From contig JAGAAF010000049.1 of the NCBI GenBank assembly GCA_017615435.1, positions 1 to 21,204 of the forward strand: DNA of 21,204 nucleotides, read 5' to 3'. The stretch comes from Bacteroidales bacterium (GTDB lineage: Bacteria; Bacteroidota; Bacteroidia; Bacteroidales; UBA932). Positions within the stretch are counted from its first letter, which is position 1. The number at the start of each line of letters is the position of its first letter. Position numbers and translations under genes: made by a program. Shown here piece by piece: positions 207 through 13,063 of this stretch. The notes beneath the pieces were generated by a model. It ran no database searches, was not told the DNA's origin, and was given only the letters and a program-made list of their open reading frames with translations.

Positions 207-300
207 GAGCGTTAAAGGTGTCCCAAAAAACGGGACACCTTACGCAAAATACCCCCTAAAACGCACAAGGTGTCCCGAAATTTGGGACACCTTATACGCT
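207..300. repeat. Left REP doublet flanking the RAYT gene
   Basis: Two hairpins lie in tandem. Hairpin 1 is 215-241, a perfect 10-bp stem (AAGGTGTCCC / GGGACACCTT) with a 7-nt loop. Hairpin 2 is 267-293, the same perfect stem with loop GAAATTT. A 25-nt spacer (242-266) separates them. The outer arms AGCGTTAAAG (208-217) and TTATACGCT (292-300) are near-complementary, so the whole unit is a nested palindrome. It is collinear without indels with the right copy at 1270-1363: about 10 differences over the first 87 positions, and none in the spacer. This layout resembles the REP/BIME units associated with RAYT transposases. Confidence 0.9.
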
Positions 301-1167
301 GCATTCGTCCAAAAGCCGGGCGGCATCGGCGTAAGTCAGACCGCAAACCCTGGCGATTTGGTTGGCGTCGGAGTTGAACCTGAAACGCAGTTGCTTGGCA
401 AATTCTGTTTTCTCCTTTGAGTTGAGTTCATCGAAAGAAGATTTCTGGAATAAAGACCAGCACATATCTTGAATACAACTGAGAACAGTCTGGTCTTTGA
501 GAGACATAATATTGTTCCCTGATTCAAATTTGTTTTTTGCCTTAGAAGAAGTACGAATGAAATAATTCATTCGCGACGGGCTTCTAAAAATACTTTCCAC
601 GCTTTTCACATCGACATAATTGGAGGGTAGAATGACACCTTCATCATCTATTCCCCAATCTTTGGGTATCTCCGAGCAGGCAGAGTGGAACCGTTTGATG
701 CACCCTCGCCGTGAAAGATTTCCTACCGTTCCGGCACTTTTGACATTCGGATTGAAATAAAGGCTGCCTGTTCCCCATCTGTACTGGCAGGGATGTGAGC
801 AGATATTTGCGGCTACCGAATTATCGATCACGTATGCAAGCGCTCTCTCCAAAGCTTCTGCTACATTCTCCACCTCCCTGACATCCAGAGAGTTGCCGCG
901 CAAAAATTCGCAGGTGCCATATTTCTTACGGTAATAAATGGAGTAGCATCGCTTGAATTCATTCACGAAGGCAATCACATCCTTCCGCGTTCCGCGAAGA
1001 ACAAAGTGAACGTGGTTGGACATCAGAATGAATGCCAACACAACTACCTCCGGGTGCCTGGCGGCCTGAATGGCGACGTAATTCATCGCCACAATAAAAT
1101 CCTCGTCGTCAAGGAACCACAGCCTCTTCTCAAGATGGCTCGTGGAAATAAGATAAAACTTTTTCAT
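292..1167 (-). CDS. REP-associated tyrosine transposase (RAYT, Y1/IS200-like)
   Basis: A 291-residue single-strand DNA nuclease/transposase of the HUH Y1 superfamily. Visible motifs are the metal-binding HVH (52-54) in ILMSNHVHFVLRG, the candidate catalytic tyrosine Y112 in AYVIDNSVAA (the position of the YIHxNP motif of RAYTs), and YRWGT (129-133), the usual YRWSS block. The roughly 150 residues after the core are less recognisable. Known RAYTs are single-copy domesticated relatives of IS200/IS605 TnpA that nick REP hairpins. Near-identical double hairpins on both sides (207-300 and 1270-1363) fit that role. The outer REP arm supplies the final codons and the stop. ATG at 1167 agrees with the family N-terminus MKKFYLIST. 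A TAnnTTTG element lies 36 nt upstream. The frame looks intact. Confidence 0.88.
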   Translation of the reverse strand: MKKFYLISTSHLEKRLWFLDDEDFIVAMNYVAIQAARHPEVVVLAFILMSNHVHFVLRGTRKDVIAFVNEFKRCYSIYYRKKYGTCEFLRGNSLDVREVENVAEALERALAYVIDNSVAANICSHPCQYRWGTGSLYFNPNVKSAGTVGNLSRRGCIKRFHSACSEIPKDWGIDDEGVILPSNYVDVKSVESIFRSPSRMNYFIRTSSKAKNKFESGNNIMSLKDQTVLSCIQDMCWSLFQKSSFDELNSKEKTEFAKQLRFRFNSDANQIARVCGLTYADAARLLDECSV

Positions 1168-1269: not shown

Positions 1270-1363
1270 GAGCGTTAAAGATGTCCCGGATTTCGGGACA
1301 TCTTACGCAAAATACCCCCTAAAACGCACAAGATGTCCCAAAATCTGGGACACCTTTAACGTT
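1270..1363. repeat. Right REP doublet between RAYT and truA
   Basis: Direct copy of the left element. Hairpin 3 is 1278-1304, a perfect 10-bp stem AAGATGTCCC / GGGACATCTT. Hairpin 4 is 1330-1356, AAGATGTCCC / GGGACACCTT with one mismatch. The 25-nt spacer 1305-1329 is identical to 242-266. Relative to hairpin 1, hairpin 3 changed G to A in one arm and C to T in the other, preserving pairing. The outer arms AGCGTTAAAG (1271-1280) and CTTTAACGTT (1353-1362) pair over nine of their ten bases. The element lies 5 nt beyond the truA stop codon, so it may also end truA transcripts (inference). Confidence 0.9.
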
Positions 1364-11534: not shown

Positions 11535-11660
11535 GCTATCAGCAGTTGCCACTGGCGGAACTCAGTCGCTACGCTCCTTCGGCCCCTCCCACTTCGTGGG
11601 CCCCTCCCCCTGCCCGTGTCCGGGGGTGGACACGTCCGCCAGTGGCTAACTGCTGATAGC
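11535..11660. repeat. Long palindromic element overlapping the folC 3' end
   Basis: The left arm 11535-11559 and right arm 11635-11660 are inverted copies that differ by one inserted base: GCTATCAGCAGTT-GCCACTGGCGGA against GCTATCAGCAGTT-A-GCCACTGGCGGA. The 75-nt interior holds two further hairpins, CCCAC-TTC-GTGGG (11588-11600) and CGTGTCC-GGGGGT-GGACACG (11615-11634). The right arm encodes the last residues and stop of folC, ending at 11646. It looks like a mobile or structural intergenic repeat rather than a simple terminator, since there is no T-run. Confidence 0.8.
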
Positions 11661-13049
11661 TTCAGCCACTACGAAGGTGCTACCTCCAATGTAGATAATG
11701 CTGTCGGGAGTGGACTGTGCTAATGCCATTTGGAGGGCGTCGGCGACGGATGGAGAGGTCTGGAGGTTTAAGTCGGGTCGTAATGCTGACAGCCTGCTAT
11801 GCAATGTGTCCACTGGCAGGGCGCGGGGAGTGTCGGGGGCGCAGAGGATGTAGCGGGCGGAAGAGGGCATAAGCGGAGCGATGTCGTCCAGCGCCTTGTC
11901 CGCCATTATACCATAGACAATGATCAACGGCTTTCCGGATTCTTCGAGTTGGCGGAAATTGTGGGCGAGCGCGGCCGGATTGTGTCCGATGTCGCAGATG
12001 ACCGTGGGGTTTTCCTGAAGAATCTCCCAGCGCCCGCGAAGACCTGTAATCTTTGCAGTGTTGCGAAGCGCATCGTAATCAGGCTCGATTCCGAGAATCT
12101 GAAGTGCCGCGAGAGTCGTACGGACATTCGCGTCCTGATACTCTCCACGCAGATCCATTCCGTCCAGATGAACCGGCTGAACCATCTCGTCTGCGAAATG
12201 CAACTGTGCCCCGACTTCTTGCGAGTACTTCTCGAACACCGCATCCGTTTCGGCATCGTGCCCCCAAACCAGCGCGGGCACACCCTTCTTGAATATCCCG
12301 GCCTTTTCCAGTGATATTTCGGCCCTTGTATCGCCCAACATCGCGCAATGGTCCAGGCCAATGCTCGTAACCACCGACAATATCGGGCTTATAACGTTAG
12401 TGCTATCAAGTCTTCCTCCAAGTCCCACCTCGATCACCGCCACATCCACATTTTCCCTCTCGAACCACCACAACGCCATCCCCGTCGTAATCTCGAAAAA
12501 CGACAACTCCTTTATCTCCTCCTCATACCTTTCCAAAAACTCCATCACCTCTTCTTTGCTTATGAGCAGCGAATGTTCCCCCTGTCCCGGGAGATGATGT
12601 GCGTAGGGTATAAAGGCGTCATCAGACGCCCGGCCGGCCCGGGTATTTGGCGAAGACAAATACGGAAAGGGAGAAAGGCCGCTGGGGGCTTCGGGGGTGT
12701 CCCCCGTATAATAGCGAGGGCGGCAGGGTTTCGGAGGGCAGAGGTCTTCTCCGAACGTTGAAGAAATTATTTTGATCCGTTCGCGAAAATCGATAAGGTG
12801 CGGAGAGGTGAAGAGCCCGACGCGGAGTCCTGTGGAGGCGAGGGAAGCGGCGAGCATTGAACTGACGGAACCTTTTCCGTTAGTTCCGGCGACGTGTATG
12901 CAGCGAAAAGACTTCCACGGATGCCCGAGAGCGGCGTCGAAAGCGAGCATAGAATCGATTCCGGCTTTGTAGGTGCGCCCGTTGAATCCGGACACCTGCA
13001 CGCTCGGGTGGCGCGCGAAAATCTCTTCTATCTTCTTTTCGTATTGCAT
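11646..13049 (-). CDS. folC: Folylpolyglutamate/dihydrofolate synthase FolC with an insert
   Basis: A Mur-ligase-type ATP enzyme that joins glutamate to dihydropteroate and/or reduced folates in the cytoplasm. 467 residues from the ATG at 13049 (MQYEKKIEEIF); the frame extends 3 codons further to a TTG that is less likely. Motifs: P-loop GTNGKGS (55-61), TSPHLIDFRERI (81-92), SFFEITTGMALWWF (183-196), VIEVGLGGRLDSTN (205-218) and DIGHNP (353-358). Residues about 95-162 (12564-12767) interrupt the stretch where the family normally runs from RERIxxNG directly to ISxEEV, adding about 68 Pro/Arg/Gly-rich residues without breaking the frame. The C-terminus ends in a palindromic element. Whether the enzyme still works is not visible, but the other motifs are intact. 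Confidence 0.93.
   Translation of the reverse strand: MQYEKKIEEIFARHPSVQVSGFNGRTYKAGIDSMLAFDAALGHPWKSFRCIHVAGTNGKGSVSSMLAASLASTGLRVGLFTSPHLIDFRERIKIISSTFGEDLCPPKPCRPRYYTGDTPEAPSGLSPFPYLSSPNTRAGRASDDAFIPYAHHLPGQGEHSLLISKEEVMEFLERYEEEIKELSFFEITTGMALWWFERENVDVAVIEVGLGGRLDSTNVISPILSVVTSIGLDHCAMLGDTRAEISLEKAGIFKKGVPALVWGHDAETDAVFEKYSQEVGAQLHFADEMVQPVHLDGMDLRGEYQDANVRTTLAALQILGIEPDYDALRNTAKITGLRGRWEILQENPTVICDIGHNPAALAHNFRQLEESGKPLIIVYGIMADKALDDIAPLMPSSARYILCAPDTPRALPVDTLHSRLSALRPDLNLQTSPSVADALQMALAQSTPDSIIYIGGSTFVVAEAISS
12564..12767 (-). repeat. In-frame palindrome-rich insert inside folC
   Basis: 204 nt (68 codons) lie between the family-typical RERIKI and ISKEEV of FolC. The DNA contains several perfect inverted repeats: GGCGTC-ATCA-GACGCC (12615-12630), CGGGGG-TGT-CCCCCG (12692-12706) and TTCGGAG ... 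CTCCGAA (12730-12755), plus a CGGCCGGCCCGGG stretch. The encoded segment (PKPCRPRYYTGDTPEAPSG and onward) is Pro/Gly/Arg-rich and resembles no enzyme domain known to me. Boundaries are estimated from the expected protein alignment and are good to about 5 codons. No target-site duplication was recognised. Confidence 0.7.
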
Positions 13050-13055
13050 ACAACT

Positions 13056-13063
13056 CAAAAATA
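13056..13063 (-). promoter_or_regulatory. Candidate -7 box for folC
   Basis: The minus strand reads TATTTTTG, an exact TAnnTTTG, ending 6 nt before the chosen ATG at 13049. No TTTG is seen 19-20 nt upstream. The spacing to the start codon is the same as for truA. Confidence 0.4.

Follow-up and report, generated by a model that had tools for sequence, protein, structure and literature searches.

A palindromic DNA repeat of Bacteroidales, probably mobile, found mostly between genes and in frame within FolC and four other protein families

Palindromic elements tolerated within proteins are best known from Rickettsia, where weak selection, along with small genome size, is a frequent explanation. 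Rickettsia palindromic elements (RPEs) are described as stem-loop forming units of 105–146 bp that lie in frame within 19 reading frames as well as in intergenic DNA; the gmk product, a host enzyme bearing an RPE, is reported there as active (PMC2229807). REPs measure 20–40 bp and are marked by an unpaired GTAG or CGTC motif (PMC3733652, PMC6006769). PMC3733652 reports intragenic REPs from several species, with pseudouridine synthase genes recurring, and CGTC repeats from five phyla including Bacteroidetes; palindromic repeats of Wolbachia (WPE) are named there as well. Subclass 2.6 of the RAYT genes, as outlined in PMC6006769, belongs mostly to Bacteroidetes and is flanked by atypical secondary structures with copies elsewhere. 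PMC2229807 presents ERIC/RU-1, RU-3 and the Correia 107-bp repeats as bacterial MITEs that contain open frames and occur as fusions with genes.

The DNA analysed here (the window, a stretch of 21,204 nucleotides from a Bacteroidales bacterium) carries a folC gene, identified by a match to TIGR01499 (281.8 bits, cut-off 162.65). The open reading frame (ORF) encodes 470 residues, and has an in-frame ATG at 13049, at the start position of the homologues P0002, P0003 and P0005. An in-frame insert of about 68 residues had been proposed in the first-pass annotation, and alignment bears this out. The segment is stop-free, with the frame kept throughout; it is absent in 7 of the 10 relative loci aligned (L004–L009 and L013, where a short turn only is found), and the other three (L001–L003) carry different inserts at the same site. 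The alignment took in L001–L009 and L013, and L010–L012 were left out. Presence of the segment in distant FolC, which the first-pass annotation had named as an outcome against its reading, was not observed in this comparison. The best solved FolC structure matched by phmmer (1o5z) is aligned in two pieces, broken around the insert, and GC content is 59.8% in the insert and 54.5% in the remainder of folC. Genome comparisons were made against related genomes and loci; the nearest ones (L001–L008) are metagenome assemblies of Bacteroidales, with the rumen named for L002 and L007.

The FolC insert is composite, made by a repeated core and other sequence on both sides (Table 1). The upstream part features a 7-bp stem of its own (12730–12736 paired to 12749–12755). 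Additional segments were noticed in related proteins. FolC of L003 (3512–4873) has a second extra segment of about 30 residues in another loop, after LEKM, which is absent from 13 other aligned FolC proteins. A short insert in FolC of L002 (4001–5263) reads CHFERSREI, and in L125 the C-terminus of the RibF frame ends in CHFDQAQRVEKSH; both resemble pieces of another dispersed repeat.

Table 1. Coordinates of the features in the window (positions of the whole stretch; strand given where assigned)
Feature	Position	Strand	Remarks
Direct repeats of 92 nt flanking the RAYT-like gene	207–298, 1270–1361		87% identical; two hairpins of GGTGTCCC/GGGACACC type each
folC, folylpolyglutamate/dihydrofolate synthase ORF	11646–13058	-	TTG at 13058 is the listed start
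In-frame FolC insert, residues 98–165 (68 extra)	12564–12767	-	alignment to FolC of relatives, pLDDT
Upstream part of the insert, outside the core	12714–12767	-	peptide ISSTFGEDLCPPKPCRPR; also present in FolC P0005, there lacking the core
Palindromic core, residues ~117–150 (a copy of the dispersed element)	12610–12709	-	model R1, 107.2 bits (the window copy is itself among the copies used to build R1)
Hairpin 1	12692–12706		CGGGGG-ACA-CCCCCG on the coding strand; inverted-repeat scan, DNA fold
Outer stem of the central hairpin, arms 12631–12635 and 12677–12681	12631–12681		coding-strand prediction; the opposite strand folds differently
Central hairpin	12643–12663		GTATTTG / CAAATAC; inverted-repeat scan, covariation, DNA fold
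Hairpin 3	12615–12630		GGCGTC-TGAT-GACGCC on the coding strand; inverted-repeat scan, covariation, DNA fold
Downstream part of the insert	12564–12609	-	peptide PYAHHLPGQGEHSLL; common to FolC P0002 and P0003

The segment had also been described as packed with perfect inverted repeats, and this stands in part. With 9-base seeds and a length of at least 12, no inverted repeat was found within the insert, and one pair spans the segment from outside. A finer scan of positions 12540–12790 yielded 16 pairs, a count given without a chance expectation, in which the perfect ones measure 6–7 bases and two longer ones are imperfect. The core palindromes are several short stems, rather than a single long one: separate hairpins, with several stems over ~100 bp, were predicted in the six copies folded and in the consensus, in all cases for the core only. 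Folded as DNA, the 105-nt core is more stable than shuffled sequences on both strands (z -3.04 and -3.06; 1/200 and 0/200 shuffles as good). Folded as RNA, a region of 221 nt is weakly better than shuffles (z -1.59; 15/200 as good or better).

Conservation of the stems was analyzed in an alignment of 31 of the 44 copies, 13 truncated, interrupted or divergent copies being left out. In a structure of 24 pairs 98.6% of the cells are paired, and 10 pairs are changed on both sides in some copies; in hairpin 3, this is the case for five of six pairs. Cells changed on both sides number 50, against a mean of 13.5 in shuffled alignments, and in 0/500 shuffles was any of five measures reached. The structure prediction itself used this alignment, and the copies share descent; the controls remove these effects only in part. 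Pairing drops to 38–52% when the partners are slid. In helices 2–5 (20 pairs) the 615 paired cells include no G-U pair; variant ones number 49, all of them Watson-Crick, and three further cells are mismatched; helix 1 is looser, with G-U at the inner pair in 22 of the 31 copies. Since helices 2–5 covary without G-U pairs, selection would act on DNA hairpins, or on both strands, rather than on one RNA. The core is also slightly richer in open frames than expected (mean 3.35 of 6, against 2.63 in shuffles), a modest excess which fits reading on both strands.

Related sequences are found well beyond folC. Of eight related genomes searched with the DNA, seven contained matches at E<=0.1 (38 in all), and six contained matches at E<=1e-10 (33 in all); the absence of any related sequence elsewhere, which the first-pass annotation had named as an outcome against its reading, was therefore not observed. 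The element was detected at E<=1e-4 in 9 of 61 genomes (G001 and relatives). When the RibF-type copy was used as query, 14 of 101 genomes matched, at full length only in G003, and with the core or a part in the others. Aligned copy stretches measure 99–117 nt, and the unit common to L031, L042 and L043 132–141 bp. The repeated unit (~100–140 bp) is smaller than the peptide insert taken earlier as the cassette, and resides mostly outside genes.

The 44 copy rows analyzed are those left in the BLAST list once duplicates of a place were removed; neither L020 nor L050 contributed a row, 5 of the 38 DNA matches had no locus, and some of the DNA matches are represented as L058–L060. Four copy rows lie at contig ends. 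In L060 and L041 (both at ~1501–1551) and in L049 (~1501–1542) the copy is broken midway by other sequence, which suggests that insertions are nested. In more distant genomes (G101:C7, G159:C28, G159:C37) weak matches to the model occur in regularly spaced tandem, and perhaps represent other similarly built hairpin repeats.

Six of the 44 copies lie in frame within genes, encoding FolC (window), RibF (L014, G003), MiaA (L024, G002), a pseudouridine synthase of the RluA type (L040, G002, as a remnant) and an MFS transporter (L058 in G002 and L059 in G001). The other 38 are not in genes by the test used, which considers codon usage of the flanks and neighbouring ORFs. Codon-usage scoring was applied to the flanks of the 44 rows, four having a flank missing on one side, and the same best strand and phase was obtained on both flanks in 12. 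Flank scores are 7.3 and -6.5 for the window FolC, 13.3 and -0.1 for L014, 9.5 and 15.8 for L024, 23.7 and 16.8 for L058, 23.9 and 17.1 for L059, 3.0 and 4.9 for L040; the in-gene assignments rest chiefly on translation across the copies and on family matches, rather than on these scores. In the other six of the 12 (L016, L023, L028, L035, L043 and L056) one flank or both score -11 or less, and the copy is not in a gene by the codon test. At the remaining loci ORFs are found beside the copy and none across it, except in L041, L045, L047 and L053, where a frame running from stop to stop overlaps the copy with its upstream end, probably ahead of the real start.

Protein searches extend this list. 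A search of ~5.8 billion proteins with residues 98–166 of FolC yielded, from 33 candidates, four with E<=10: the FolC proteins P0002, P0003 and P0005, and one pseudouridine synthase of the RluA type (P0004), identical to the window insert at 34 of 50 residues. P0005 has only the first half of the insert in common, which lies outside the core. The RibF insert is the element read on the strand opposite to that used in FolC; as query it retrieved eight proteins among 11 candidates, six RibF (P0006–P0011) and two RluA (P0012, P0013). The MFS insert retrieved one more MFS protein (P0014) among 18 candidates. Judging from these translations and matches, the element is carried in frame by five protein families, FolC, RibF, RluA-type, MiaA and MFS, and occurs in copies outside genes as well; the recurrence of the cassette in other genes had been put forward as the decisive test of a mobile repeat.

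Orthologues devoid of the element were found for each of the five families: FolC L004–L008, MiaA L134–L138, RluA L146 and L147, MFS L155, RibF L126 and L127. MiaA L139, MFS L156 and RibF L122, L123 and L125 have other longer linkers and were not counted as empty sites; RluA L148, L150 and L152, from which no ORF was recovered, were left out. Outside the linker RluA P0012 is 95.9% identical to L147, and P0013 96.3% identical to L146, both without insert, yet P0012 and P0013, which have the same insert, are only 88.0% identical to each other. This pattern means that the insert was recently gained, lost or exchanged. P0004 carries the element in the same loop as P0012 and P0013, in frame and in opposite orientation, and is 89.0% identical to P0012 outside the element; either independent insertions or an inversion at the site may have produced this arrangement.

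Different modules occupy the same loops. Outside the segment RibF P0009 and L124 are 97.6% identical; within it the former has the palindromic core and the latter another module. Besides its own place, the FolC insert of L001 is matched in G005 and G003 (3 of 8 genomes). A second repeat module, found in RibF L124, RluA L149 and FolC L001, encodes a peptide like RSTPPFTSFTVPP and sits at the same loops as the core; in L124 and L149 the RSTPPFTSFTVPP-like peptide is followed by PRVA. The motif GCCGAGGGTGGCA, which adjoins the second module, was found at 12 of 181 loci, some of which are overlapping stretches. MiaA L139 (G008) has a different insert of ~20 residues at the site occupied by the element in L133. 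It is doubtful that in-frame cassettes, as different modules or in either orientation, are being actively exchanged through hairpin DNA at fixed loops of FolC, RibF and RluA in close relatives. If they are, cassette exchange would be a lineage-wide process repeatedly reshaping the loops of housekeeping enzymes, rather than a series of rare accidents.

Near-identical copies were found at apparently unrelated loci of different genomes. L031 (G007) and L042 (G005) are 95.5% identical over 132 bp, the sole match between the two loci, and their description as unrelated depends mainly on one side, the flank of L042 measuring only ~140 bp on the other; folC of the same genomes is 76.1% identical, and 54% of fourfold sites differ. 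L031 is 95.0% identical over 141 bp to L043 (G001), with one further short match (folC 74.7%). L042 and L043 are 97.1% identical over 140 bp, in genomes that are closer (G001 and G005, folC 88.8%). Copies do not cluster significantly by genome: identity is 81.4% within and 80.2% between genomes in a set of 24 copies (224/2000 permutations).

In seven of nine protein comparisons the insert is better conserved than its flanks. RibF inserts of P0006–P0008 are 97.7% identical to L014 (flanks 90.0, 80.9 and 79.1%), that of P0009 93.0% (flanks 76.3%), those of P0010 and P0011 86.0% (flanks 76.0 and 73.7%). The FolC insert of P0002 is 96.8% identical to that of the window, against 85.4% in the flanks. 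No excess is seen in P0003 (83.9% against 84.7%) or in P0005 (39.6% against 86.9%), in which the second half of the insert is different. The higher conservation of the inserts is consistent with inserts that arrived later, with copies that were exchanged, or with hairpins under constraint.

Modelling had been suggested as a check for a disordered loop. In an AlphaFold2 model of FolC (14 sequences, mean pLDDT 75.9) residues 102–160 have pLDDT <50, and are placed between the strands 95–98 and 163–165. The best reading is that the insert extends a beta-hairpin turn as a segment predicted to be disordered. The model of RibF (mean pLDDT 54.7) is too poor for judging disorder. The insert would be translated and kept in the protein, and FolC with the insert may stay active.

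A RAYT-like gene lies in the same window (292–1167, minus strand), matching PF01797 at 25.2 bits (cut-off 23) and REP_Tyr_transpos at 27.1 bits, below the cut-off of 80. With its 92-nt direct repeats it is a REPIN-like unit, unrelated to the FolC element; as the flanking repeats are of a different type, this gene was rejected as the source of the element. PF01797 matches were found in 10 of 11 genomes, and 30 of the 32 matches had loci; a clear copy of the element was found at one of the 30, with another ORF in between. At a second locus (L080) the element match is at chance level (E 0.96), and in G094 a RAYT-like ORF (L109) follows the single weak match (E 0.0017) at a distance of ~470 bp. 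Co-occurrence was assessed in 149 genomes of the family of G001, the searches being treated as the same draw. Relatives of the window RAYT (E<=1e-10) occur in 19/19 genomes with a match to the element model and in 50/130 without (p ~1e-7, uncorrected for kinship), many of the model matches being weak and the RAYT relative of G207 being marginal (4.4e-11). For PF01797 the figures are 17/19 and 78/130 (p 0.011), and for the six of the 19 genomes with a strict model match (E<=1e-9) the RAYT is present in 6/6, against 63/143 (p 0.009), both uncorrected for kinship. That a RAYT mobilises the element is a tentative proposal, which we would put somewhat below even odds; the alternatives are recombination or another transposase.

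Taken together, genome comparison shows a dispersed family, with covarying predicted hairpins and near-identical copies at apparently unrelated loci of different species, and we give a probability of about 85% to the reading that the core is a non-autonomous, hairpin-forming mobile DNA repeat, tolerated in frame as a flexible peptide. The repeat, of ~100–140 bp, would reside mostly between genes in related Bacteroidales, and sometimes within a gene. Several frames of the element, on either strand, can be read through, and nothing but a flexible peptide is added to the protein, which would explain why in-frame copies persist in loops or linkers; the one in FolC would lengthen a beta-hairpin turn. 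The architecture suggests movement via single-stranded hairpins recognised in trans, for which a RAYT-type transposase would be the most likely, if still tentative, agent. The resemblance to RPEs noted at the outset, from the window alone, gains support from the dispersed family and from the five protein families with in-frame copies.

The likeliest rival, though itself rather unlikely, is a spread through template switching or recombination among repeats, with no transposase involved. It is favoured by the exchange of modules at one site, as in RibF P0009 and L124, and by the interrupted copies; L031 and L042, which have only the element in common and no flank, are more easily explained by transposition. 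A MITE moved by a DDE transposase would fit the size and the scattered occurrence, and is rather improbable: the predicted stems are local hairpins of the core, and terminal inverted repeats were not found in the window copy or in the core folds (the core was folded, not the full unit of 132–141 bp). Moreover, no consistent target-site duplication was seen by eye, and a Pfam scan of 67 ORFs neighbouring the copies (9 of 76 were left out) gave no transposase among the listed 25 of 104 families.

More improbable is a functional structured RNA (a terminator, a 3'-end stabiliser or a regulator), mainly intergenic and incidentally copied into genes. Strong covariation and the intergenic location of most copies speak for it, as do five copies found within 50 bp of a tRNA gene (L019, L026, L031, L048 and the second copy in L024) in the 10 sources scanned. 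Rfam 15 argues against it, the 10 sources giving six matches at gathering scores, all to tRNAs, and positions 12500–12850 a single match outside the insert (E 0.12; 16.2 bits, the gathering score being 54). So do the in-frame copies in both orientations and the lack of G-U pairs in helices 2–5 despite 49 variant cells, taken as unusual though judged without an RNA yardstick. An RNA role may exist locally, at some places. That FolC has a functional extension specific to its lineage, maintained by selection and unrelated to mobile DNA, could account for the agreement of the window and P0002 at 60 of 62 insert residues, above the flanks, and is hardly credible when the same peptide occurs in RluA P0004 and, read from the opposite strand, in both RibF and RluA, when relatives lack the insert or have other ones, and when the insert is predicted to be disordered. 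An assembly chimera or a binning artefact comes to mind given that the relatives are metagenome assemblies; it is equally hard to credit, as the FolC insert is found on other contigs in P0002 and P0003, with the frame open each time, and the RibF insert in seven sequences, one also in NCBI.

If the core is such a mobile repeat, this Bacteroidales family, in which close relatives differ by the presence, orientation or kind of insert at a single loop, would offer a comparatively recent case of new peptide segments entering essential enzymes. It also calls for caution with segments of this kind in proteins from metagenomes, which can be repeat DNA rather than domains. In the open-licence PMC literature, a body that leaves bioRxiv and most subscription papers outside, a search for accounts of such elements within coding genes of Bacteroidales found none. 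WPEs are reportedly, from the title of the original paper, protein-coding palindromic repeats; the likeness is by title only, and Wolbachia belongs to a different bacterial group.

Like ERIC/RU-1, RU-3 and the Correia 107-bp repeats, the element is a short repeat with open frames inside genes; the terminal inverted repeats with which they are listed in PMC2229807 were not found in its window copy or core folds, nor was a consistent target-site duplication, given there for ERIC/RU-1 and Correia elements, seen by eye. With REPs and REPINs it shares a palindromic make-up, a scattered and mostly intergenic distribution, occurrence within some genes, including those for pseudouridine synthases, and co-occurrence with RAYT-like genes. 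It differs from REPs in length (100–140 bp), in having several stems, and in not flanking the RAYT genes examined. A CGTC in the window copy sits inside a stem and is not invariant among copies. The closest likeness is to the RPEs, in size (~100–140 bp), in stem-loops, and in the coexistence of intergenic copies and in-frame copies in several unrelated conserved genes, as described in PMC2229807. The core is predicted to form separate hairpins, whereas RPEs are described in the same source with long stem-loops and terminal inverted repeats. The bacterial group is another one, the likeness is one of description and not of sequence, and both orientations are found within one loop of orthologous genes. 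In its workings the element is an analogue of the Rickettsia palindromic elements, from a bacterial group for which our literature search gave no description of them.
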